Translations under genes and position numbers: made by a program
Part shown: positions 1 through 38,049 of the stretch, piece after piece
Layout of the letters: each line of letters begins with the position of its first letter
Numbering within the stretch: the first letter of the stretch is position 1
The notes under the pieces: generated by a model
The model's database searches: none
Told to the model about the DNA's origin: nothing
The model's input: the letters and a program-made list of their open reading frames with translations, nothing else
From: a virus
Reading direction: 5' to 3' (one strand)
DNA length: 38,049 nucleotides
Virus record (IMG/VR): IMGVR_UViG_3300034107_000939
Coordinates: 1-38,049 of that record

Positions 1-235
1 ATAGGAGATAACGGATGTTTGAAATGAAGTACAAATGGGTGGAAACAAAACCCCATTTGCTCTGGCGGATCCTTGGGAGTCGTGAGTGGGTCCAAGTCTC
101 CGATTCTGCGATGCGAATTGAACGCACAGAATTGCGGTACGTTGCCCATTGTTTTGGCCAGACTCACTCGGCCATGACTTTTCGGCAGGCCCGATTGTGG
201 GCGGAAAAGTTGCAAAAACAGCGATTGGCGAAGGT
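1..235. repeat. Terminal direct repeat, left copy (circular overlap)
   Basis: This stretch is repeated at 37815-38049 with two mismatches (A128/G and C173/T). Both fall in third codon positions of the first gene (ACA/ACG Thr and GCC/GCT Ala). The simplest reading is an assembly overlap of a circular genome with two population variants. A true terminal repeat or a tandem head-to-tail copy is less likely but not excluded. Confidence 0.9.
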
Positions 236-431
236 GGTCAATCACTCCGAATTTGTGATGAACGCGATCGTCGTACATTGTTACGATTGCGGCACCGAGA
301 TGGCTTTGGGGCCTCGGATCAATCCTGTGGAGTTCCGTGGAAAGCTGGTTCTGAAGTGTGCGAGTTGCAATCCTTCGAGCGGGATTGCCGGAATGGTTGC
401 GAAAGCGTTTTTGGAAGAGGATACCGAATGA
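15..431 (+). CDS. Hypothetical zinc-ribbon protein
   Basis: Protein of 138 residues with no family that I recognise. The C-terminal half has two CxxC pairs (CYDC and, about 27 residues later, CASC), which would make a four-cysteine zinc ribbon. A good ribosome binding site (GGAG at 4-7) lies 7 bases before the ATG. The stop overlaps the next start as ATGA. The 5' part is present again at the right end, so in the circular genome the gene follows the one at 37626-37841, which overlaps its start. A nucleic-acid or protein-binding role is likely from the fold only. Confidence 0.75.
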   Translation: MFEMKYKWVETKPHLLWRILGSREWVQVSDSAMRIERTELRYVAHCFGQTHSAMTFRQARLWAEKLQKQRLAKVVNHSEFVMNAIVVHCYDCGTEMALGPRINPVEFRGKLVLKCASCNPSSGIAGMVAKAFLEEDTE

Positions 432-688
432 GCGCCTACGAAATGGAAAAAGTCATACCGAACTGCCTGGGCCGACTGGATCCGACCATGGACGCTCTGA
501 GGGCGTTTGATGTGGAGGCGGTTTTGACTTTGGCCGGGGCTGAATCCCGTCGAAGACAAATCAAATCGGCGCGGTACATCCAGCGATTTGAGAATGAGAT
601 TCTGGCCATCCAGAACATTGCTGAATTCACAGCGAATTTGGGGGATATCAAATTTCTCGAACGCGCGGTTCGCGAAGCTGGTTCGTGA
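428..688 (+). CDS. Hypothetical small protein
   Basis: Protein of 86 residues starting at the ATG that overlaps the previous stop (ATGA, 428-431). The reading frame is open further upstream, but that part lies over the first gene and the overlap start is much better placed. The sequence looks helical and charged, with no cysteine motif, signal or membrane segment. It is not recognised. Translation is probably coupled to the upstream gene. Confidence 0.65.
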   Translation: MSAYEMEKVIPNCLGRLDPTMDALRAFDVEAVLTLAGAESRRRQIKSARYIQRFENEILAIQNIAEFTANLGDIKFLERAVREAGS

Positions 689-728
689 ATTTCTTGATTT
701 CTTTGGCCTCTTGATGGGAGTGATCGAC

Positions 729-1232
729 ATGCCTTATATGGGCAATTTGCCAGCGGATACTTCCGAATGTCTGATTCCGGATCGGACTCAAATGGAAGTG
801 GATTTGTTGTTTGCCAAGCGGCAATTGGAGTCGATGCGGCAGCATAATGAAAATCAGGCTGAATCGATTGAGACTCTGAACGCTCGGGTGAATGAGTTGG
901 AAGGAACGCGGGGCTCGTGCCCAGGCTACTACCGTACCAGTCCGATTTATCAGTTTGTGGACTATCAAAAAACGGTGCTGGTTCCGTTGCTCGTGTGGCT
1001 GCAATATGACGAGCACGTTATTCACTGTATGCTTTCGGCATCGGAGCACTACTTTCGCAAGGGTCGAAAAACGGCGGATGAAAGCCATGACATTACGGCT
1101 TGCGATTGGTGGTTGTCCGAAGCCGATAATCAGTGGAAAACATTGACAAATTGTAAAGTACAATCCCCGATCGGGATTTTCGTCGAATTGGTTCAACCGT
1201 TGTTGGATAAGCTGATTCCGGATGGTGAATGA
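729..1232 (+). CDS. Hypothetical protein with N-terminal coiled coil
   Basis: Protein of 167 residues. The start at 729 is chosen because GGGAG at 716-720 lies 8 bases upstream; an ATG at 714 in the same frame has no such site. Residues about 15-50 are rich in E, Q, R and L with heptad-like spacing, suggesting a coiled coil. The rest is tryptophan- and aromatic-rich with four scattered cysteines. There is no recognised family. It overlaps the next gene by 11 bases. Confidence 0.65.
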   Translation: MPYMGNLPADTSECLIPDRTQMEVDLLFAKRQLESMRQHNENQAESIETLNARVNELEGTRGSCPGYYRTSPIYQFVDYQKTVLVPLLVWLQYDEHVIHCMLSASEHYFRKGRKTADESHDITACDWWLSEADNQWKTLTNCKVQSPIGIFVELVQPLLDKLIPDGE

Positions 1233-1533
1233 CTTGAGTAAATCACATGAAAACACGTTTTTGGAGTTCGCGACCACTCAGCAAATGGTGGCCGAGCTCA
1301 AGCGGCGCGGGAATCAAGTTGTCCTGATTCTTGACAAGACATGCTCGCGAGATGAGCAATTGGATGAGTTTTCAGCGGTCTGGATGGGTGGTGTCTGTCA
1401 GGTGTTGGGGATGTTGGAGCGTTCAAAGCAGCTCGTATCGGGGTGGGCGGATGCGTATTCGGACGATGACGACGACGACGATGATGACGACGAAGACGAT
1501 GAACGGTTTTCTCCGCACTCGATGCTGGCCTGA
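1222..1533 (+). CDS. Hypothetical protein with poly-aspartate tail
   Basis: Protein of 103 residues. The first 80 residues look like a small helical domain. A run of about ten Asp, then E-D-D-E, follows at the C-terminus, encoded by GAC/GAT codons at about 1462-1503. The start ATG overlaps the previous gene by 11 bases and has only a weak binding site; GTG at 1225 is possible. Acidic tails of this kind can bind basic proteins or mimic DNA, but no function can be assigned. It lies directly before the sigma-like genes. Confidence 0.65.
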   Translation: MVNDLSKSHENTFLEFATTQQMVAELKRRGNQVVLILDKTCSRDEQLDEFSAVWMGGVCQVLGMLERSKQLVSGWADAYSDDDDDDDDDDEDDERFSPHSMLA

Positions 1534-1541
1534 AAGCGAAG

Positions 1542-1814
1542 ATGTCAGGATATGCCTCCGGAATCACTTCTGATCAGGATCCTCCGAACAGCCTTGACGA
1601 GCTGATTCTTGTCGAGGATTTAGGCAAGTTACGGGCGGCCATTGGCCAATTGTCAGTCGATCAATCGAAAGTCCTGATGTGGAAGTATGGTCTGGATGGG
1701 ACTCCGCCCAGGTCGATTACCTACATCGCGAACCGCATGCGGTGGCCTGTACCGGAGGCTCAGAAGCAGATCGGCTTGGCGATTGAGCAATTGAGGGGGG
1801 CGATCCGTGATTGA
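1542..1814 (+). CDS. Sigma-70 region 4-like protein
   Basis: Protein of 90 residues. Residues about 25-88 follow the region 4 pattern of primary sigma factors: a helix equivalent to L-x-x-x-L-D-x-L, then VLMWKYGLDG, a short turn, and a helix-turn-helix ending in a stretch matching the Q-I-E-x-x-A-L-x-x-L-R recognition helix. In sigma factors this region binds the -35 element and the RNA polymerase beta flap. No region 2 is present in this protein. Its end overlaps by 8 bases the start of the next gene, which carries a region 2-like domain. Likely role: half of a two-part sigma factor for late genes. Confidence 0.75.
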   Translation: MSGYASGITSDQDPPNSLDELILVEDLGKLRAAIGQLSVDQSKVLMWKYGLDGTPPRSITYIANRMRWPVPEAQKQIGLAIEQLRGAIRD

Positions 1815-2124
1815 CAAACCGGTGAAACGGCTCACGAAACGGCAGCAAAACAAAGTCGTCAAATGGCTGCCGGATTGCTACAACATTGCGTTCGATAAAA
1901 ATCGGACGATTCGTTTATCGCCTGATCAGGTCGTGGAACGCAAGAGGGTTGCGGAGGACGCTTTGATTGCGGCGGTTTTGGAGTGGCGATCGGACAAAGG
2001 GACCACGTTTCGAACGTATCTTTGGCGCAAAATTCAGTGGGCGATTCTGGACGCGCACCGACGTTCGAAACAGCGTAGGAATCAGCAGATCACTTTCACA
2101 GACCTTGATTCAGAGGATGAATGA
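1807..2124 (+). CDS. Sigma-70 region 2-like protein
   Basis: Protein of 105 residues with a GTG start inside the end of the region 4-like gene. Residues about 50-90 match sigma region 2: an A-L-x-x-A-V-x-x-W segment, then GTTFRTYLWRKIQWAILD and an R-R-S-basic tail, as in the G-x-x-F-x-T-Y-A-x-x-x-I-R-x-A-I-x-D core. Region 2 binds the beta-prime clamp helices and the -10 element. No region 4 is present. The overlap of the two genes suggests coupled, balanced production of the two parts. Known parallels are SigO/RsoA of Bacillus subtilis and gp55/gp33 of phage T4. Confidence 0.7.
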   Translation: MIDKPVKRLTKRQQNKVVKWLPDCYNIAFDKNRTIRLSPDQVVERKRVAEDALIAAVLEWRSDKGTTFRTYLWRKIQWAILDAHRRSKQRRNQQITFTDLDSEDE

Positions 2125-2125
2125 A

Positions 2126-2305
2126 ATGATGAAACCACCAGGATATCGGACCAAAGAACAGCCTGTTTTGACGCGGCCTGAATGTATTCAGATCGACACG
2201 GAACAGGTTCGAAAATTGACCGAAGCGGAAATCGCGGAAATCGGCAAGTTGTTTACCCCGCAAACGATGGTGAATCGATGGTCAACGATGGCGCTACAAC
2301 TGTAA
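2126..2305 (+). CDS. Hypothetical small protein before terminase
   Basis: Protein of 59 residues (ATG at 2126; ATGs at 2117 and 2129 are alternatives). AGAGG at 2112-2116 gives a 9-base spacing to 2126. The sequence is polar, with a short helix rich in E, I and L in the middle. It is not recognised. The gene begins just after the region 2-like gene and ends 3 bases before the terminase, whose own binding site is weak, so it may serve translational coupling. Confidence 0.55.
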   Translation: MMKPPGYRTKEQPVLTRPECIQIDTEQVRKLTEAEIAEIGKLFTPQTMVNRWSTMALQL

Positions 2306-2308
2306 AAG

Positions 2309-4075
2309 ATGCGAGAAGAAAACGGGCGATTCACACCCGGTCACAAATTTAGCGGGATCACTCGATTCCAGCCGGGGAATCGGGTACGCGCTAACTTCAC
2401 GCAACGAAAAGAGGCGTACAAGGAAGCGCTGCGACGGCTTTTGAACTCGTTTACCGATGACGGTTTAAGTATCGCCGACAAGCTCGCCATGGAGACTGTC
2501 ACGCAGGCTCTCTCAGGCGACGAAATGGCCGTCACTTGGATGAAATTGATTCATGACACGGTCGATGGCTCGCGAACGGTCTTGGAAGTTCCCGACGAAC
2601 CGGACGATCCAGATGACGACGAAAACACGCCAGAAATACCCCAAGGCGATGTGATTGACGTTGAGTTGGTCGATCCACCACGAAAACTGACGAAGCCAAA
2701 GGAAGCGAAACAAGGGCGGTTTAACGCGTGGCTGAAAAAGGTGTCGCCAGATCGGGATTGGGACGCTCCGCATTTGGTCCTTTTGCAAAGCAAGGTGGAG
2801 CTGGTCAATTCTGGCCACCTTCGACGCCTGATCGTTTCGATGCCACCACGGCACGGGAAAAGTGAGCTGCTTTCGATTCATGCGCCGGTGTGGTTATTGG
2901 AGCAAAATCCAAAGCGTGAAATCATCACGGCGGGCTGGGGGGTGGCATTATCGAGAAAATTCACGCGGAAAGCGCGGTTGTTGGCCGAGCGGATCGGGAT
3001 GCCACTTTCGAGCAAGGTGGCCCAGGCGGGTCAATGGGAAACGGCTGAGGGCGGGGCCGTGTTTGCGGTCGGGGTCAAAGGTGGGGTGGCCGGTTATGGT
3101 GCGGATATCCTGATTTGTGATGACCCGGTGAAAGATGTCAAAGAAGCCAATTCGCCACTCCAAAGGGAACGGGTTTGGGATTGGTTTACCTCTGAGGCGA
3201 TGACCCGTTTGAGCCCCAACGGCGCGGCGATTGTGATTATGACTCGTCGGCATGAGTCGGACTTAATCGGTTCGTTGGTCGAAGGTCGTGACGCGGAAAC
3301 GGGCGAAGCTGTCGAGTCTGAAGACGTCGAAGACCGGTGGGAATATATCTCACTTCCAGCGATTTCCGAGGGCGATGGGGATGCGATTGGGCGGCCTGAG
3401 GGGGCGGCTCTGTGGCCAACTCGATTCAGCCTGGCGAAATTGGCGAAAATACGTGAAACGGTGGGATCATGGATTTGGGCGGCACTTTACCAACAACGAC
3501 CGTCACCACGTTCCGGGGGGCTTTTTCAGCAAACTTGGTTCGCTCAGTTTGTCGATGTGGCGCCAGCGGGGCCGGGTCTCAAGTGGGTGCGATATTGGGA
3601 TAAGGCTTCGACGGTCGATGGTGGGGACTATACCGTTGGCGTTTTGATGTGTGAGTGGGACGGCAAGTTTTATGTGGTCGATGTGGTGCGGGCTCAGGTG
3701 TCGCCACAACAACGGCGGATTTTACAGCGTCAATGTGCCGAAATGGACCCGCGCGGAACGGTGTGCTGGATTGAGCACGAAGGCGGATCGGCGGGGAAAG
3801 ATGCGGCGGAATTGGAGGCGCGAGAATTGGCCGGGTTTGCGGTGCGGCACGAACATCCGACCGGCTCAAAGGAAGTCAGGGCCGATCCGTTTGCGGCTCA
3901 GTGCGAGGCGGGGAATGTCATTTTGGTGCGTGCAAAGTGGAATCGAAAGTACATTGAAGAACTGTGCACATTCCCGAACGCCAAGCACGATGACCAGGTG
4001 GATGCGTCAAGCGGGGCGTTTGGCAAACTTGCCGTGAAACGGCGGATCCGAGTTGTAGGAGGCCGGGATGATTAG
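2309..4075 (+). CDS. terL: Terminase large subunit with DUF5681-like N-terminal extension
   Basis: Protein of 588 residues, the ATPase and nuclease that packages DNA into the prohead. Residues 178-186 are the Walker A motif (MPPRHGKSE), 266-273 the Walker B (DILICDDP), followed by a coupling motif around MTRRHES. The C-terminal RNase H-like nuclease shows Asp431 (RYWDKAS) and the terminal DDQVD at 561-565. The first 90 residues begin GRFTPGHKF..GITRFQPGN and continue as helices, resembling DUF5681, a domain often found in small-terminase-like proteins. An acidic linker joins the two parts. No separate small terminase gene lies next to it; a P27-like one is at 23816-24097 on the other strand. 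Confidence 0.95.
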   Translation: MREENGRFTPGHKFSGITRFQPGNRVRANFTQRKEAYKEALRRLLNSFTDDGLSIADKLAMETVTQALSGDEMAVTWMKLIHDTVDGSRTVLEVPDEPDDPDDDENTPEIPQGDVIDVELVDPPRKLTKPKEAKQGRFNAWLKKVSPDRDWDAPHLVLLQSKVELVNSGHLRRLIVSMPPRHGKSELLSIHAPVWLLEQNPKREIITAGWGVALSRKFTRKARLLAERIGMPLSSKVAQAGQWETAEGGAVFAVGVKGGVAGYGADILICDDPVKDVKEANSPLQRERVWDWFTSEAMTRLSPNGAAIVIMTRRHESDLIGSLVEGRDAETGEAVESEDVEDRWEYISLPAISEGDGDAIGRPEGAALWPTRFSLAKLAKIRETVGSWIWAALYQQRPSPRSGGLFQQTWFAQFVDVAPAGPGLKWVRYWDKASTVDGGDYTVGVLMCEWDGKFYVVDVVRAQVSPQQRRILQRQCAEMDPRGTVCWIEHEGGSAGKDAAELEARELAGFAVRHEHPTGSKEVRADPFAAQCEAGNVILVRAKWNRKYIEELCTFPNAKHDDQVDASSGAFGKLAVKRRIRVVGGRDD

Positions 4076-5333
4076 CGGCAACGGCGGCAACGCGTTTGGC
4101 GACAATGGTTCGAATCTGAAAATATACAACGGGATGGGCGGGGGCGGCGGAGGTCGCAGTTTTGCCCTTTTACCGGGTGCGAAACATGACTGGGAATTGG
4201 AGGCGGGGCGGCTTTATCTCAACGATGTCGTTTCCATCGCCTGCAATTGGATTGCCGAAAAGGTCAATTTGTGCCCGTTGGTCGTGGAGGAGCGCCAAGG
4301 CGATGGCACCTGGGCACCGGCATACGATACAGGCTTGGCCGAATTGTGGGTCAAATCGAACGACAATTACGACTCTTTTACGCGAGATTTGGCGATGGCT
4401 TTATCAGTCATCACTTCCGGAAATGCGTTTTTATACATCGAACGCGACGCTTTTGCGGGGCTGCCGATCGGACTTCACTGGCTTGACGAACGATACGTTT
4501 TCCCGCTCTATCCAGCGACTGGGGAACGCTATCTGGACTATTGGCGCTATATGGTCAACGGTCGGACGCTGAACATTCCCAAAGAAGATGTTTTGCATTT
4601 CCGCTGGGGAATTGATCCGCTCAACACGCGGCTCGGACTCTCCAAACTCAAGGCGGTTTTGCGCCAGATTTGCCTTTTGAATGAGGCGGCTGGCTATTCG
4701 GTTTCGATCCTCAAAAACGGTGGTGTGCCGGGCCTGATCATCACTCCTGAGGATTCGAACGACGAATTGTTGGACGACGAAGGCGGGGAAATTGAGAGTC
4801 AGGTCAACCGAATGACCCGTGGTGATAATCGGGGGCGAACGATTTCGCTGAATCGTCGGATCAAGATTGACACGATTGGTTTTTCGCCTGAACAAATGGC
4901 GCTGGACAAGCTCCCAAACGGGGCTATGCCCATGGTTCTGGCGGCTATTGGTACGAGTCCGGAGGTTCACGGCCTGCCAAGTGCCACCAAAACTTACGAT
5001 AATTTTGGCGTGGCCATTCAGGCTGCGTGGCGAAGCGGGGTTCTACCGATTTTGGGGCTGATTCGATCGACGATTTCACGGCGTTTGATGCCTGAGTTTG
5101 GGCTTGACCCGCGAAAGTATCGGGTGGTTCACGATTTGTCTCAGATTCCCGATTTGGCCGAAAACCTCAACGATCGTCACAAACGGGCTCGCGACAACTT
5201 TACTGCCGGTGGTATTTCGCTGAATGAGTTCCGGGCCGAGCTGGGCAAGGCGCCGGATCCGTTTGGGGATCGGTATTTTTGGGAGATCAATCAGCCAGGC
5301 ACGCAACCGGCGGTGATCGACCATGCCAATTGA
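4068..5333 (+). CDS. HK97-family portal protein
   Basis: Protein of 421 residues forming the dodecameric portal through which DNA enters the capsid. It has the usual portal features: an N-terminal glycine-rich arm, the conserved GNAFLYIERD segment, an HFRWGIDP motif and the long helical C-terminal crown region. Length is normal for the HK97 family. A strong site (AGGAGG at 4057-4062) precedes the ATG, which overlaps the terminase stop by 8 bases. The fixed order terminase-portal-head protein-protease-capsid supports the call. Confidence 0.95.
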   Translation: MISGNGGNAFGDNGSNLKIYNGMGGGGGGRSFALLPGAKHDWELEAGRLYLNDVVSIACNWIAEKVNLCPLVVEERQGDGTWAPAYDTGLAELWVKSNDNYDSFTRDLAMALSVITSGNAFLYIERDAFAGLPIGLHWLDERYVFPLYPATGERYLDYWRYMVNGRTLNIPKEDVLHFRWGIDPLNTRLGLSKLKAVLRQICLLNEAAGYSVSILKNGGVPGLIITPEDSNDELLDDEGGEIESQVNRMTRGDNRGRTISLNRRIKIDTIGFSPEQMALDKLPNGAMPMVLAAIGTSPEVHGLPSATKTYDNFGVAIQAAWRSGVLPILGLIRSTISRRLMPEFGLDPRKYRVVHDLSQIPDLAENLNDRHKRARDNFTAGGISLNEFRAELGKAPDPFGDRYFWEINQPGTQPAVIDHAN

Positions 5334-6147
5334 GCCAAACGACCACAATTTACCGCTTGGATCACGACTTTACCCAATCTTGGTGGGGAGCTTTAACGCC
5401 CAGGCTAAATTGGTAAAAGAGCGATTGACGGGGAAAAAGTCGATATTTTACACGCCTGCGGAACTGTTGAGACCGTCGGATAAAGGGTTGCTCGAAGAGT
5501 ACGAACGGATTGTGCCGGTGATTACGGGGATTTGGGACAAGAGCGGCAAGCGGCTTTATCGAGCTGTGGGGCTGGATCCAGAACGATGGCGGGTGAACTC
5601 CGAATATCTCAAGGGGGCGATTCGCGCCAGCACTCTCAATTTTGCCGAATCGACCCAGGCGACATTTCATGAAGATTTCAATGGGCATTACGATATGCTC
5701 AAACACGCGATCAGGGCTGAGATTGAGCTGGGGCGGCTGGGGGCGGGCGAATCGACCGACCAACTGACCAGACGACTGATGAAATATTTTCAAGACAATA
5801 ATCGATTTCGGGCTCGTCGAATCGCTCAGACCGAAGCGGTTAGGGCTCATCACTTGGCTATGCAATGGTCGGCAAAGGATTCCGGCGTGGTGGCTGGATG
5901 GCAATGGGTAGAGACTTCGGCGTCATGCCCAATCTGTCACGCGATTGCGAAGGATGCGAACAATCCGACCGGGCGAAGAACGGTCAAGCTGGGGCAGATA
6001 TTTGCGGTTCGTGGGACCAATCCCGATTACAAAAATATTCGGCACCCGCCAGCGCATCCGTTTTGTCGATGCACTTTGAAAGCGGTTTTAGAACCAAGTT
6101 ATACCCAAGACGATAAGCCGATTGACTGGTCATTTTTACCGGCTTGA
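5323..6147 (+). CDS. Mu gpF-like minor head morphogenesis protein
   Basis: Protein of 274 residues. The second half has the signature of the phage Mu F family: ARRIAQTEAVRAHH, then a CPICHAIA pair and a C-terminal HPPAHPFCRCTL, giving a Cys/His metal-binding set. These minor capsid proteins are needed for head assembly and are packed with the portal. The start overlaps the portal stop by 11 bases. The N-terminal half is helical and less conserved. Confidence 0.9.
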   Translation: MPIEPNDHNLPLGSRLYPILVGSFNAQAKLVKERLTGKKSIFYTPAELLRPSDKGLLEEYERIVPVITGIWDKSGKRLYRAVGLDPERWRVNSEYLKGAIRASTLNFAESTQATFHEDFNGHYDMLKHAIRAEIELGRLGAGESTDQLTRRLMKYFQDNNRFRARRIAQTEAVRAHHLAMQWSAKDSGVVAGWQWVETSASCPICHAIAKDANNPTGRRTVKLGQIFAVRGTNPDYKNIRHPPAHPFCRCTLKAVLEPSYTQDDKPIDWSFLPA

Positions 6148-6175
6148 TATCGGCTAGTCGGCACGTATCGAAAGT

Positions 6176-6200
6176 CTCTCCAAAGCAACCACTTTGGAGG
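6176..6200 (+). promoter_or_regulatory. Hairpin holding the ribosome binding site of the protease gene
   Basis: CTCCAAAG (6178-6185) and CTTTGGAG (6192-6199) form a perfect 8-bp stem with a 6-base loop. The 3' arm contains most of the GGAGG site used by the GTG start at 6208, so folding would hide it. The decamer CTCTCCAAAG of the 5' arm also occurs at 16977-16986 and 18224-18233, just before two other starts. Confidence 0.5.
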
Positions 6201-6207
6201 ACGAATC

Positions 6208-7044
6208 GTGACGCAAGCCGAAATCACCAGCGAACTGAAGCGAAAAACGGTGCCGTTTCTCATCAAATCGTCAGCAGGCGATTCGACGGGGACATTTTCC
6301 GGGATTTGCTCGGTTTTTAACAACGTCGATTTTGCGCGTGAAATCATTGCGCCGGGCGCGTTTTCCGAGACGCTTCCATACTTCCTGAGTGAAGGTTTTG
6401 TGACATACGAACACGATTGGGATGAACCGATCGGCAGGCCAACGGCGGCTGAGGAGACCTCCGAAGGGCTGTTGGTGACGGGCGAAATTTATCCGGAAAT
6501 GTTCGAGGCTTCGAGCGTCCTGGCTGGAATGAAACGCGGTGTCATCAAGCAAATGAGTATCGGTTACTACGTTCAAGAGGCGAAATTCCTTAGTCTCGAA
6601 GAAACTGTTGCCTACTGGAATCAGGTCGGATTTTCGCCCAGTCCGAACGATCTTGGATTGGCTGCCAACGGGGTGACGCTTCTGACTAAGTTGAAGCTCG
6701 AAGAGGCTGCGATCTGTATGCGAGGGGCGAATAATCAAGCCCGCGTCACAGGCGTGAAAAGCTATCTGAAGAGCGTTTTGGCGGATCTGTTTGGGAAGCC
6801 GGAAACGAGTCCGGTTGCGGATCAAAAGCACATCGATTTATTGACTGACCAGATCTGGAAGTCAATTCGCCCGGCCATTCGCTCAGAGGTTTTGAACCTT
6901 TTGGGCCCAGCTCCACACGAGCCACAAAAATCACAGGTTCCGGACGTGGAATTTGTCTCGAAATCAGCTCAAAGCGAAATGCTGAGAGTTGATCGTTTAT
7001 TGATCGATCTGCAAGTCGAAGCGGCCCTTGGGAGGGGCGTATAA
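6208..7044 (+). CDS. HK97-type prohead protease
   Basis: Protein of 278 residues with a GTG start 7 bases after GGAGG. It processes the capsid and scaffold. The family pattern is clear: FSGICSVFNNVD, IIAPGAF, a catalytic His69 in YEHDWD followed by PIGRP, and the catalytic Ser117 in QMSIGYY. The C-terminal 90 residues may act as scaffold, as no separate scaffold gene is present, although the capsid protein also carries a long N-terminal delta-like domain. It ends 2 bases before the capsid gene. Confidence 0.93.
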   Translation: MTQAEITSELKRKTVPFLIKSSAGDSTGTFSGICSVFNNVDFAREIIAPGAFSETLPYFLSEGFVTYEHDWDEPIGRPTAAEETSEGLLVTGEIYPEMFEASSVLAGMKRGVIKQMSIGYYVQEAKFLSLEETVAYWNQVGFSPSPNDLGLAANGVTLLTKLKLEEAAICMRGANNQARVTGVKSYLKSVLADLFGKPETSPVADQKHIDLLTDQIWKSIRPAIRSEVLNLLGPAPHEPQKSQVPDVEFVSKSAQSEMLRVDRLLIDLQVEAALGRGV

Positions 7045-7046
7045 CA

Positions 7047-8447
7047 ATGGAAGTATCATCGGACTATACCGCCTGGGTGTCGCAATTGCTCGAAATGCAA
7101 AGCGAGTCTCGGGATCTGTCAAACCGGATCACGGAGGGCACTGCCTCCCCTGATCAAAAAAACAAGTTCAATGAGATTGTACCCAAAATATCGGTTTTGG
7201 CGAACCACATTCAGAACTTCCGAACCGCTCAAAGCCAAGAGCAATTCAAGGCCATGGAATCGGCTCTGAATTATTCACTTAGGGAACAACCGACGGCTCC
7301 GGCCCGTCCGGGTGCTCGGTTTTATAACCTTGGGGCTGAGAAAACCGAAGAAGAAGTTTTGGACCAAAAAACCATACACAAATATGGAAGTTTGGAACGG
7401 GAATTGGGCCTGAAGAAGTTTTCGGCCATTTCCGATCCTGAATATAAAATGGCCGTCGAAAGTGCTCTCCGCTACGGCTGGAGCGGCGTTTCGAACGGTG
7501 AAATGAAAGCGCTTGATTCCGGTGCTGACGAACGCGGCGCGGTGACGGCACCGGCTGAGGTGATCAACATGATCATTTCACGGCTGAACGCTCCGACTCG
7601 CGTGGGTGGGATCGTCAAAGAGATCAACACAGCGCGGGATTCCGTGCAGTTTTACCGCAACGCCTATGATGGCGACGATATGTACACGAACTCCTTTCGC
7701 CGGATTGCGACTGGGAGCCGACCTGCAACGGACACGGAAGCCATTGTGACGGGATCGGGAACGGCTTATGTCGAGCCCGTTAAAATCCAAGTCCATACTT
7801 ATATGATGGTCGGACAGATTGAAAATGATCTGTTGATGGATTCAAGTTTCGACTTGATGAGCTGGTTTACGAACGAAATTTCCAAGTCGGCGGCTCAGGA
7901 TCGTGATAATGATATTATCAACGGGACTGGCGTTGGCCAGAATATGGGGATTATGAACTATGTCGGTACGGGCGCTGTGTTTGGCGTTTCCGCCGTCAAT
8001 ACTGGCGATGCCAATCTCTTGACTGTGGCCGGGCTTTCGAATCTGCTTTGGGATCTGCCTGAACAGTATTGCGAAAATGCTGTTTTGACGATGAACCGGA
8101 CCCATGCGGGCAAGGCTTTGGGCGCTCTTCGAGGATCGACGGGCCTGCGAATCTATGGCGATGTGGACGCAGCCAACGGCGCTTCCATGGTGGGTCCATC
8201 GGGTCAAAAGCTCGAAGGATATCCCGTCATTTATAGCTCGAAAATGCCGACCGTTGCTGCCGGTACGTTCCCAATTCTGTTTTGGGATCCATCGGCCTAT
8301 GTCAGTTTGACTCGTCAAAATATCTCGATCAAGATTCTTGATCAGACACGGGCCAAGCAAAACATGACCGAAATTGTTGCCAAAATCCGCTACGGGGGCG
8401 ATTTGGTTGAACCTTTTCGTTGTCGCGCTCAAAAGGTGTCCGTCTAA
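7047..8447 (+). CDS. Major capsid protein, HK97 fold
   Basis: Protein of 466 residues. Residues 1 to about 110 are helical and charged, as in the delta (scaffold) domain removed by the prohead protease. The rest has the HK97 organisation: a segment ending in ERGAVTAPAEVINMI, the RVGGIVKEINT turn, the E-loop region with repeated Y/F and acidic residues, a DIINGTGVGQNMGIMN motif and a C-terminal stretch with LEGYPVIYSSKMP and WDPSAYVSLTR typical of the A/P domains. A purine-rich GGGAGGGG site lies shortly before the ATG. Confidence 0.95.
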   Translation: MEVSSDYTAWVSQLLEMQSESRDLSNRITEGTASPDQKNKFNEIVPKISVLANHIQNFRTAQSQEQFKAMESALNYSLREQPTAPARPGARFYNLGAEKTEEEVLDQKTIHKYGSLERELGLKKFSAISDPEYKMAVESALRYGWSGVSNGEMKALDSGADERGAVTAPAEVINMIISRLNAPTRVGGIVKEINTARDSVQFYRNAYDGDDMYTNSFRRIATGSRPATDTEAIVTGSGTAYVEPVKIQVHTYMMVGQIENDLLMDSSFDLMSWFTNEISKSAAQDRDNDIINGTGVGQNMGIMNYVGTGAVFGVSAVNTGDANLLTVAGLSNLLWDLPEQYCENAVLTMNRTHAGKALGALRGSTGLRIYGDVDAANGASMVGPSGQKLEGYPVIYSSKMPTVAAGTFPILFWDPSAYVSLTRQNISIKILDQTRAKQNMTEIVAKIRYGGDLVEPFRCRAQKVSV

Positions 8448-25451: not shown

Positions 25452-25512
25452 TGTTTCTTACTTTTCTTTCCCTTACACCTATATTATAGCATCTATTCCG
25501 GATTAGTCAATA
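25452..25512 (-). promoter_or_regulatory. 61-bp promoter/operator repeat, copy 1
   Basis: On the minus strand TTGACT (25505-25510) and TATAAT (25483-25488) are 16 bases apart, a near-consensus sigma-70 promoter reading into the gene ending at 25068. A near-palindrome, CTATTCCGGATTAG (25493-25506), fills the spacer and is a likely operator. The whole 61 bp is identical to 27693-27753. Confidence 0.85.
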
Positions 25513-27692: not shown

Positions 27693-27753
27693 TGTTTCTT
27701 ACTTTTCTTTCCCTTACACCTATATTATAGCATCTATTCCGGATTAGTCAATA
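27693..27753 (-). promoter_or_regulatory. 61-bp promoter/operator repeat, copy 2
   Basis: Identical to 25452-25512. On the minus strand TTGACT (27746-27751) and TATAAT (27724-27729) are 16 bases apart, with the near-palindrome CTATTCCGGATTAG at 27734-27747 between them. It should drive the operon beginning with the gene at 27371-27673. Confidence 0.85.
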
Positions 27754-29447: not shown

Positions 29448-29551
29448 GACGCCACCGATGTATATTCTCAACATTTGTGTCAAAGAACTCAGGAAAACTA
29501 GAACGCTTAACATCTTGTTGTAAAAGTCTAATCCATAAAGACTTGGGCCAA

Positions 29552-29593
29552 TACACCCGAGAGGATTTGAACCTCTGACCTTTTGCTCCGGAG
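29552..29593 (-). other. attP: attP core: 3' half of a tRNA-Arg(CCG) gene
   Basis: On the minus strand, from the anticodon loop CTCCGGA through GCAAA, AGGTC, the T arm (AGAGG-TTCAAAT-CCTCT) and the acceptor strand CGGGTGT plus A, this matches the 3' half of a tRNA-Arg(CCG). The 5' half of a tRNA is not there: no D arm with GG, no U8, and the anticodon stem does not pair. It lies beside the integrase, as expected when the phage recombines into a tRNA gene and restores its 3' end. Confidence 0.8.
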
Positions 29594-29632
29594 ATTTGCT
29601 TAGTTGACATCATCAAATCGGGTCCGGGTGTA
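29552..29632. repeat. Split inverted repeat forming a tRNA-like fold around attP
   Basis: TACACCCG (29552-29559) and GACC (29577-29580) are complementary to the single 12-base stretch GGTCCGGGTGTA (29621-29632), with the T-arm hairpin pushed out between. Inside, GATTTG (29593-29598) pairs with CAAATC (29614-29619). The result is a cloverleaf-like or tmRNA-like shape of about 80 bases that is not an ordinary tRNA. Confidence 0.65.
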
Positions 29633-29675
29633 GTCGATGCAGGCTAAGGATTTACAGCGATTTAGCTGGCAAACG

Positions 29676-29900
29676 TCACGCTTCTTCTTGCTCCAGAAAC
29701 TTCGTCGTTGCCTGGTAAGCCTCTTCACGCTCTTTATCAGAGAGTGACAAGAAGTGGTTCAGCGCGGTGAGTGGTAGTAAATACTGACCAGACACCCGAC
29801 CACTCACTTTCCGCCCGTTTACCTGCTGCCGTGCGGTCTCTGTGCGGATCGTGTCCCGCCACTGTTTTGGGATCCGCATCTCAAATCTTACAAGTTCCAT
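29676..29900 (-). CDS. Small regulator near attP, possibly excisionase-like
   Basis: Protein of 74 residues with an excellent AAAGGAGGT site before its ATG. It begins MELVRFEMRIPKQWRDTIR, a short strand followed by basic helices, and ends in an acidic helix (DKEREEAYQATTKFLEQEE). The beginning resembles ribbon-helix-helix proteins. It is the first gene leftward from the divergent control region, near attP and integrase, so it may be an excisionase or lysogeny regulator. Confidence 0.62.
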   Translation of the reverse strand: MELVRFEMRIPKQWRDTIRTETARQQVNGRKVSGRVSGQYLLPLTALNHFLSLSDKEREEAYQATTKFLEQEEA

Positions 29901-29928
29901 TTTCGGTACCTCCTTTCTACTAAGAGAT

Positions 29929-29957
29929 AGTATCGTCTATTTACGTATTTCCGTCAA
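29929..29957 (-). promoter_or_regulatory. Leftward promoter of the control region
   Basis: On the minus strand TTGACG (29952-29957) and GATACT (29929-29934) are 17 bases apart, a good sigma-70 arrangement for the gene at 29676-29900. An ACGGAAAT element overlaps the -35, related to the ATTACGGA sites on the other side. Confidence 0.6.
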
Positions 29958-30004
29958 ACAGTGATTACGGATTTTCGATTTGGCCGATTTTACGAACTTA
30001 CCAC

Positions 30005-30033
30005 TTGACGTAATTACGGAATTGTGTTAGGTT
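30005..30033 (+). promoter_or_regulatory. Rightward promoter of the control region
   Basis: TTGACG (30005-30010) and TAGGTT (30028-30033) are 17 bases apart, 41 bases before the ATG at 30075. The spacer contains an ATTACGGA site, so a bound repressor would block it. It should start the early rightward operon. Confidence 0.5.
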
Positions 30034-30074
30034 CTCATTGCGTTGGTTGGTTTCACATTCAGGGGATAAATAAA

Positions 30075-30281
30075 ATGATTCGCAAGCGCGTCGAGTTCCA
30101 TCTCGAAGAGTCTCTCTATACCGATTTGTTGGTCATGTCCATTGAGCTGGATCAAAAGATGGCCACTTTGATCAGGGGCTCGCTGATCAAGCAACTCGAC
30201 CTTCATAAAAAAACATCGGCGAAATTTACGGAATTGCGAACTCTCGTATTGACGAGACGCCGAAAAAGCGTAAATTCGTAA
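30075..30281 (+). CDS. Ribbon-helix-helix regulator
   Basis: Protein of 68 residues from the ATG at 30075 (AGGGG upstream). RKRVEFHLEESLYTDLLVMS, then DQKMATLIRGSLIKQLD, gives the strand-helix-helix pattern of Arc/CopG repressors, with a basic C-terminus. As first gene of the rightward operon, beside repeated ATTACGGA sites, it may be an autoregulating repressor or Cro-like protein. Confidence 0.7.
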   Translation: MIRKRVEFHLEESLYTDLLVMSIELDQKMATLIRGSLIKQLDLHKKTSAKFTELRTLVLTRRRKSVNS

Positions 30282-30326
30282 TTACGGAAAAGCGGATTTC
30301 TGACACATCTAACGATAGGGATCAAA

Positions 30327-30527
30327 ATGCAAACAGTGAATTACGGTGCCGGTTACGAAGTCCAAATAACTCGGGAAAGAGGTGAGGGCTTTACGGTGAG
30401 ACGAATCGGCCCTTACCTCTCTCCACGAATTGCATCGCTCAAAGCTCGCAGGGTGCGTTACCGTGCTGATCAAGTGGTCGAAGTGATCCAGTGTAGTGAA
30501 AACAATGAAGATCGGTGGTCGGCATGA
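30327..30527 (+). CDS. Hypothetical small basic protein
   Basis: Protein of 66 residues with AGGG upstream and an ATGA overlap with the next gene. It is arginine-rich (RIASLKARRVRYRADQVVEV), beginning with a short beta hairpin (YEVQITRERGEGFTVRRIG). Not recognised; probable nucleic-acid contact by charge only. Confidence 0.6.
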   Translation: MQTVNYGAGYEVQITRERGEGFTVRRIGPYLSPRIASLKARRVRYRADQVVEVIQCSENNEDRWSA

Positions 30528-33007: not shown

Positions 33008-33238
33008 ATGCTCGTATTTTCAAGACACAAGGATGAATTCATTGACCTGTTTATTGACGGGGTCAAAATTGCGGAAATTTTGATTTCCGAAATCCGTGGC
33101 GATAAGGTCCGGATCGGTATTCAGGCTCCAAAAAATGTTGAAATCCATCGTCGCGAAGTTGCGGTGAAAGTTCAGCCGGATGCGATGCGGCAATTTAGCC
33201 AATTCGCGATCGAACAACCAACGTTAGAAAGTGCGTGA
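33008..33238 (+). CDS. csrA: CsrA homologue
   Basis: Protein of 76 residues. MLVFSRHKDEFIDLFIDGVK, then VRIGIQAPKNVEIHRREV, matches the CsrA/RsmA fold from end to end (L-V-L-S-R...G-I-x-A-P...I-H-R-x-E-V). CsrA dimers bind GGA motifs in mRNA leaders and block or stabilise messages. The conserved Arg in HRREV that contacts RNA is present. It has a strong AAGGAGG site and a structured leader. The phage copy may control host or phage translation. Confidence 0.9.
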   Translation: MLVFSRHKDEFIDLFIDGVKIAEILISEIRGDKVRIGIQAPKNVEIHRREVAVKVQPDAMRQFSQFAIEQPTLESA

Positions 33239-37625: not shown

Positions 37626-37841
37626 ATGAGAGTCCTGCCGAATGACCGAGATATTTTGATTCAGAAAATCACGAAAGCGATCTCTGAATTATTGGATGAA
37701 ATGAAGCGCGATCCCATTTGGTTCGAAATGGGCCCGGATCTGTCGCAGGCTGCTTTTCGTGCCAATCAAGTTAAGCACGAGGCTGCGGCTCACTGTTTCA
37801 AAACTGGTTTGAGCATAGGAGATAACGGATGTTTGAAATGA
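37626..37841 (+). CDS. Hypothetical small protein overlapping the repeat
   Basis: Protein of 71 residues from the ATG at 37626, where GGAGG sits 4 bases upstream; a start at 37596 is possible but less well supported. It is helical and charged (ILIQKITKAISELLDEMKRD) with an acidic centre and one cysteine near each end. It ends inside the terminal repeat and overlaps the start of the next gene by 13 bases, as happens when the circle is closed. Confidence 0.62.
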   Translation: MRVLPNDRDILIQKITKAISELLDEMKRDPIWFEMGPDLSQAAFRANQVKHEAAAHCFKTGLSIGDNGCLK

Positions 37842-38049
37842 AGTACAAATGGGTGGAAACAAAACCCCATTTGCTCTGGCGGATCCTTGGGAGTCGTGAG
37901 TGGGTCCAAGTCTCCGATTCTGCGATGCGAATTGAACGCACGGAATTGCGGTACGTTGCCCATTGTTTTGGCCAGACTCACTCGGCTATGACTTTTCGGC
38001 AGGCCCGATTGTGGGCGGAAAAGTTGCAAAAACAGCGATTGGCGAAGGT
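37815..38049. repeat. Terminal direct repeat, right copy (circular overlap)
   Basis: Same sequence as 1-235 with two synonymous differences. It repeats the ribosome binding site and the first 74 codons of the zinc-ribbon gene. See the left copy. Confidence 0.9.
37829..38049 (+). CDS. Second, incomplete copy of the zinc-ribbon gene (window overlap)
   Basis: This is the first gene of the window (15-431) again, cut at the window end after about 74 codons. The two base differences change no residue. In the closed circle it is one gene, not two. Confidence 0.8.
   Translation, partial: MFEMKYKWVETKPHLLWRILGSREWVQVSDSAMRIERTELRYVAHCFGQTHSAMTFRQARLWAEKLQKQRLAK

Follow-up and report, generated by a model that had tools for sequence, protein, structure and literature searches.

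A sigma factor is the RNA polymerase subunit that selects the start sites of transcription. The FliA/WhiG factors are of the sigma-28 type (group 3), RpoS and RpoD belong to groups 1–2, and Xpf of PBSX is a phage sigma factor encoded by a single gene. To our knowledge, hardly any two-subunit sigma factor is known beyond a single Bacillus regulon. In phage T4, gp55, a homologue of sigma region 2, binds the clamp helices and recognizes the −10 element, and gp33 binds the flap. Structurally, gp33 and sigma region 4 are unrelated, and gp33 acts together with gp45, the sliding clamp (PMC7892883). In Bacillus subtilis, initiation with SigO (sigma4) and RsoA (sigma2), i.e. YvrI and YvrHa, needs both proteins (PMC10028694; PMC8103513). 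Their operon is written yvrI-yvrHa, with the sigma4 gene first (PMC8103513), and the subunit masses are 22.54 and 9.00 kDa (PMC10141391). Two-subunit sigma factors have been characterized mainly in this bacterium; the pair analysed here, which we call R4 and R2, is a predicted one, located in a phage before the gene for the terminase large subunit (TerL). A search of open-access papers yielded no description of a two-subunit or split sigma pair in phages, which is not proof of absence.

The phage genome and the layout of the locus

The window, i.e. the whole stretch of DNA analysed, comprises positions 1 to 38,049 of the IMG/VR record IMGVR_UViG_3300034107_000939. Positions 1–235 and 37815–38049 are 99% equal, so that the unique sequence amounts to about 37.8 kb, and the record, though classed as linear, is the complete, terminally redundant genome of a small temperate phage. 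Its genes include those for an integrase, a YqaJ exonuclease, RecT, a replication-initiator-like protein, a RusA-like resolvase, TerL, portal, head and tail. The replication and recombination genes precede the R4/R2 pair and TerL comes after it; when the circle is read from the replication genes towards the late genes, the pair is the final recognizable regulator ahead of TerL. A scan of the window proteins against PHROGs revealed no clear late activator of the Q, ArpU or RinA type.

Several other regulatory features of this genome lie away from the pair. A CsrA-like RNA-binding regulator is encoded by the phage at 33008–33238 (Pfam CsrA, 1.4e-14). Beside the integrase, the minus strand carries a sequence resembling the 3' end of a tRNA (29513–29676), with an anticodon-arm-like CTCCGGAG and a T-arm GTTCAAATC; ARAGORN reports no complete tRNA. 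This site, which could reveal the host, is probably an attP that lies in a gene for arginine tRNA. The gap that separates the minus-strand and plus-strand operons (29900–30330) holds several copies of a TTACGGA-like motif, probable repressor operators.

The two ORFs, their lengths, the 8-base overlap and the GTG start of R2 lie exactly where the initial sequence-only reading had put them (Table 1). The overlap was read directly in two related contigs, L004 and L005, as well. The reading frame of R2 is +1 relative to that of R4, and a fused R4-R2 protein produced by +1 frameshifting was considered and rejected: no slippery codons precede the stop of R4, and translation of R2 can begin at its own start, which has a good Shine-Dalgarno site. 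The combination of this site with the lack of a slippery codon favours coupled re-initiation over fusion. Homologues of the upstream 103-aa protein are found directly 5' of R4 in L004 and L005; the aspartate run near its C-terminus is kept in L004, and the acidic tail is shorter in L005. This protein could be a partner or an inhibitor of the sigma pair.

Table 1. Coordinates of the R4/R2 locus in the window and of intact phage sigma genes in other contigs
Feature	Position	Strand	Basis or remark
103-aa protein with poly-aspartate tail	1222..1533	+	ORF; adjoins R4 directly 5'
R4, sigma domain 4-like, 90 aa	1542..1814	+	ORF (ATG), profiles, AlphaFold, dN/dS
Shine-Dalgarno-like GAGGGGGG for R2, within the end of R4	1793..1800	+	site also G-rich in L004 and L005
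R4 stop/R2 start overlap, 8 bases, GTGATTGA	1807..1814	+	also in L004 and L005
R2, sigma domain 2-like, 105 aa	1807..2124	+	ORF (GTG), profiles, fold matches, dN/dS
Conserved small protein, 59 aa, between R2 and TerL	2126..2305	+	homologue in the same place in L005
Terminase large subunit (TerL)	2309..4075	+	phrog_38 2.3e-91; Terminase_6N/6C
Intact 206-aa phage sigma	L055:7891-8508, L059:1990-2607, L062:1487-2104		two genes upstream of phrog_38 TerL
Intact 172-aa phage sigma	L054:5327-5842 (minus strand)		

Sigma domains in R4 and R2

Profile searches, a check proposed by the sequence-only reading, do return matches to sigma regions 2 and 4, although these are weak and, for R4, none comes from Pfam. 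For R2, the Pfam Sigma70_r2 match (E = 0.0052, 17 bits) is below the curated cut-off of 24; all nine NCBIfam matches are to sigma families, the best being FliA_WhiG (7.6e-4), and a PDB search with the profile of the five R2 sequences found only WhiG (9.3e-4). Sigma70_r4 matches nothing in the window, L004 and L005 genomes, whereas it does match the intact phage sigma factors of L054 and L059. The NCBIfam search brings R4 of the window to a cyanobacterial RpoD model (0.0021), and R4 of L005 to RpoS (3.8e-5), RpoD/SigA (1.5e-4) and five further sigma models. When the R2 and R4 profiles are compared with the profile of ten aligned sigma factors, R2 residues 16–84 land on region 2 (E = 2.6e-7) and R4 residues 29–89 on region 4 (E = 6e-4), compared with 0.76 and 0.34, respectively, for the control, a terminase alignment.

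AlphaFold models built from five-sequence alignments have mean pLDDT values of 79.7 (R2) and 78.5 (R4). When these are compared with the PDB using Foldseek, sigma domain 4 entries account for all 50 best matches of R4. For R2, 48 of the 50 best are sigma factors by name or RNA polymerase-sigma complexes, among them the SigE N-terminal domain, sigma-28 and RpoS; the remaining two are chains of a single designed epitope scaffold. The E-values of the structure matches are modest, as is usual for helical domains this short, but for the modelled structures the uniform sigma identity of the matches is decisive. By these models, R4 is a sigma-70 domain 4 fold and R2 a domain 2 fold. The original recognition of a region 4 protein and a separate region 2 protein is thus backed by profiles, predicted folds and conservation. 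In BFVD, the viral structures nearest to R2 are mostly two-domain sigma factors of 170–250 aa, which makes a one-domain protein such as R2 unusual.

The R2 model consists of helices at residues 11–28, 39–59 and 68–98. Residues 68–82 form a FliA/WhiG-like melting/−10 segment, F-x-T-Y-x-x-x-K-I-x-W-A-I-x-D, in which the region 2.3 melting residues F68, T70 and Y71, the counterparts of F427, T429 and Y430 of sigma-70, are invariant in all five sequences. The region 2.2 motif D-L-x-Q-E-G is not kept; R2 has E44-R-K-R-V-A-E instead, with only the acidic first position retained. In sigma-70, this motif (DLIQEG) contacts the beta-prime clamp, and with its replacement the binding of R2 to core polymerase is not assured. 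The R4 model has helices at 18–24, 27–34, 39–49, 59–66 and 70–89, the last two forming a helix-turn-helix. Between its region 4 helices, R4 retains the G-L-D-G loop seen in primary sigma factors, and its −35-recognition helix is altered relative to sigma-70. With R4 closest to RpoS/RpoD and R2 to FliA/WhiG, the two halves resemble different sigma groups; the pair may be of mosaic origin, with scores too low to insist on it.

Conservation and rarity of the pair

The R4/R2 family is rare. Besides the window, the pair occurs in the same order in four IMG/VR contigs (L002, L003/L006, L004/L007 and L005), which makes five in all and answers the call of the sequence-only reading to look for the same pair in other phages. 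L002, L003 and L004 are 93–99% identical to the window, and L005 is more distant, with 76% identity in R2 and 53% in R4. Between the window and L004, R2 has a dN/dS of 0.04 and R4 one of 0.17, as expected under purifying selection, which by this measure acts on both genes. The DNA identity between the window and L005 rises from about 0.42–0.54 in the upstream small genes to 0.63–0.69 over R4, R2 and TerL. The excess of synonymous changes and this rise in identity imply that R4 and R2 are maintained, and maintained together.

Searches of IMG/VR with R2, R4, an alignment profile, TerL and three DNA patterns produced no sixth contig with the pair; the extra matches were intact sigma factors and chance matches. 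Neither a tblastn search of INPHARED with R2 and R4 nor a scan of GTDB genomes with the R2 profile found anything, and the GTDB scan with TerL gave one match, a distant one in Streptomyces. Records of human-fecal ‘phage’ with a match to region 2 alone proved to contain intact sigma genes, mostly of the FliA type and situated amid flagellar or chemotaxis genes; these records are probably bacterial DNA. Two sister contigs, G010 and G011, begin inside TerL, so the absence of the pair from them is uninformative.

Search for late promoters

The sequence-only reading had found no late promoter in this genome, and further searches agree with it. Sigma-70-like sites show no excess in positions 1–7100 (2 against 4.4 expected by chance). 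The FliA/WhiG consensus with up to three mismatches occurs at 42 sites against 28 expected, none of them credible; the best sites carry two mismatches and none falls in the gap before TerL. A conserved non-coding island of 40 bases was not found upstream of TerL, and no exact conserved run is situated in a gap.

One clear promoter sequence is present elsewhere in the genome. A perfect 61-base direct repeat on the minus strand (25452–25512 and 27693–27753), upstream of two minus-strand genes, is a textbook promoter for the host sigma-70 (TTGACT-16-TATAAT, 11/12, with TG before the second hexamer). Two copies of this repeat are also present in the sister contig G011.

Proposed function and alternatives

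The R4/R2 pair is real, conserved and rare in phage; we infer that it functions as a sigma factor, with polymerase binding, joint action, promoter recognition and late timing all part of this proposal. Probably, R4 and R2 are the subunits of a phage two-subunit sigma factor for late transcription resembling SigO-RsoA. R2, as domain 2, would bind the beta-prime clamp helices and recognize and melt a −10-type element; R4, as domain 4, would attach to the tip of the beta flap and make contact with a −35-type element, and neither protein alone would do the whole job of a sigma factor. Translational coupling on one overlapping message would supply the two proteins in matched amounts, and the reprogrammed host RNA polymerase would then transcribe the downstream terminase, head and tail genes.

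Several observations point to this two-subunit late sigma factor. The proteins themselves contribute both predicted folds, the co-conserved overlap and Shine-Dalgarno site, dN/dS values well below 1 and the invariant F-x-T-Y. SigO-RsoA provides the precedent of a sigma4/sigma2 pair that needs both proteins. The late timing is suggested by the position of the pair, the lack of any other recognizable late activator among the proteins scanned and the intact sigma factors of L055, L059 and L062; control of the late genes is read from position. The negative promoter searches, the change in region 2.2, the altered recognition helix and the weak scores weigh against it. A more specific version, in which the late switch is an AND gate directed at an undescribed class of promoters and assembled from two coupled subunits that fold independently, R4 derived from an RpoD/RpoS-like and R2 from a FliA/WhiG-like factor instead of both from one divided gene, is doubtful.

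Alternatively, R4 and R2 might form no holoenzyme of their own and, as polymerase-binding regulators (a co-activator, an anti-sigma-like mimic or an antiterminator loader), might alter the host holoenzyme at late genes. In favour of this, region 2.2 is without the usual clamp-binding motif, R4 has an atypical recognition helix, the searches revealed no new class of promoter, and the T4 flap-binding protein acts as a co-activator without being sigma4 (PMC7892883). Two true sigma folds lie side by side and are co-conserved, however, and a mimic would have no need of the invariant melting residues in region 2.3; such a helper role is therefore rather unlikely. The different nearest relatives of the two proteins, RpoS/RpoD for R4 and FliA/WhiG for R2, could also mean that the two genes are neighbours by accident, R4 being a small activator and R2 a protein of another kind. 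This is improbable given that the overlap and the Shine-Dalgarno site are kept and that both genes are present in every relative found.

A role in packaging, with R4 as the DNA-recognition subunit, i.e. a small terminase, and R2 as an accessory, would fit a helix-turn-helix protein encoded just before TerL in a window where no separate small terminase gene was recognized. It would leave R2 unexplained, however, and the 50 best fold matches of R4 are exclusively sigma domain 4. DUF5681 is a domain that occurs at small-terminase positions, and the TerL homologue of the sister phage L005 carries a DUF5681-like N-terminal segment (E = 5e-5, just under the cut-off), so that TerL may itself contain the part that recognizes DNA for packaging. 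Altogether, a packaging role for the pair is improbable. That the two ORFs, short and with low family scores, are the decayed remnant of a normal sigma gene, or an assembly or sequencing artefact, is hardly credible and already refuted by conservation: the order is inverted compared with an intact gene, from which the sequence-only reading had rightly concluded that this is not a simple broken gene, and, an even stronger argument, independent contigs share the layout under purifying selection.

If R4 and R2 do act as a two-subunit sigma factor, the linker between sigma domains 2 and 4 is dispensable in this compact pair (90 + 105 aa), and nature would have provided an AND gate of small size. 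How split sigma factors arose would also become testable, given that intact phage sigma factors occupy the same neighbourhood elsewhere.

Comparison with known systems

The intact sigma factors of L055, L059 and L062 (Sigma70_r2 9.5e-13, Sigma70_r4 3.5e-6), encoded in contigs unrelated to the window, have a WhiG-like region 2 (F-R-T-Y-A-T-Y-K-I-R-W-A-I), as does the pair, and share with it the neighbourhood before a phrog_38 terminase. These and other single-gene phage sigma factors differ in that regions 2 and 4 are in one chain and in the normal order. Among the sigma families, FliA/WhiG is the best match of R2 and RpoS/RpoD that of R4; the members of these families are intact proteins, however, whereas R4 and R2 score far below the family cut-offs and the region 2.2 motif is not kept.

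The sequence-only reading had drawn a parallel with gp55/gp33 of T4, which holds for function and fails for structure. In both cases, the labour is divided between phage proteins, one for the clamp and the −10 element and the other for the flap, but R4 has a true sigma domain 4 fold by prediction, to which gp33 is unrelated (PMC7892883). No obvious sliding-clamp-binding tail was seen in the sequences of R4 and R2.

The closest likeness is to SigO-RsoA, where sigma4 and sigma2 are likewise in separate proteins and the sigma4 gene comes first. The order of the genes, taken in the sequence-only reading as unusual for a two-part sigma factor, is therefore shared with that operon (PMC8103513). The likeness is drawn from the published description, and one of the SigO-RsoA subunits is roughly double the size of either R4 or R2. 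SigO-RsoA is chromosomal and serves the oxdC regulon, whereas the R4 and R2 genes overlap, belong to a phage and precede its terminase.
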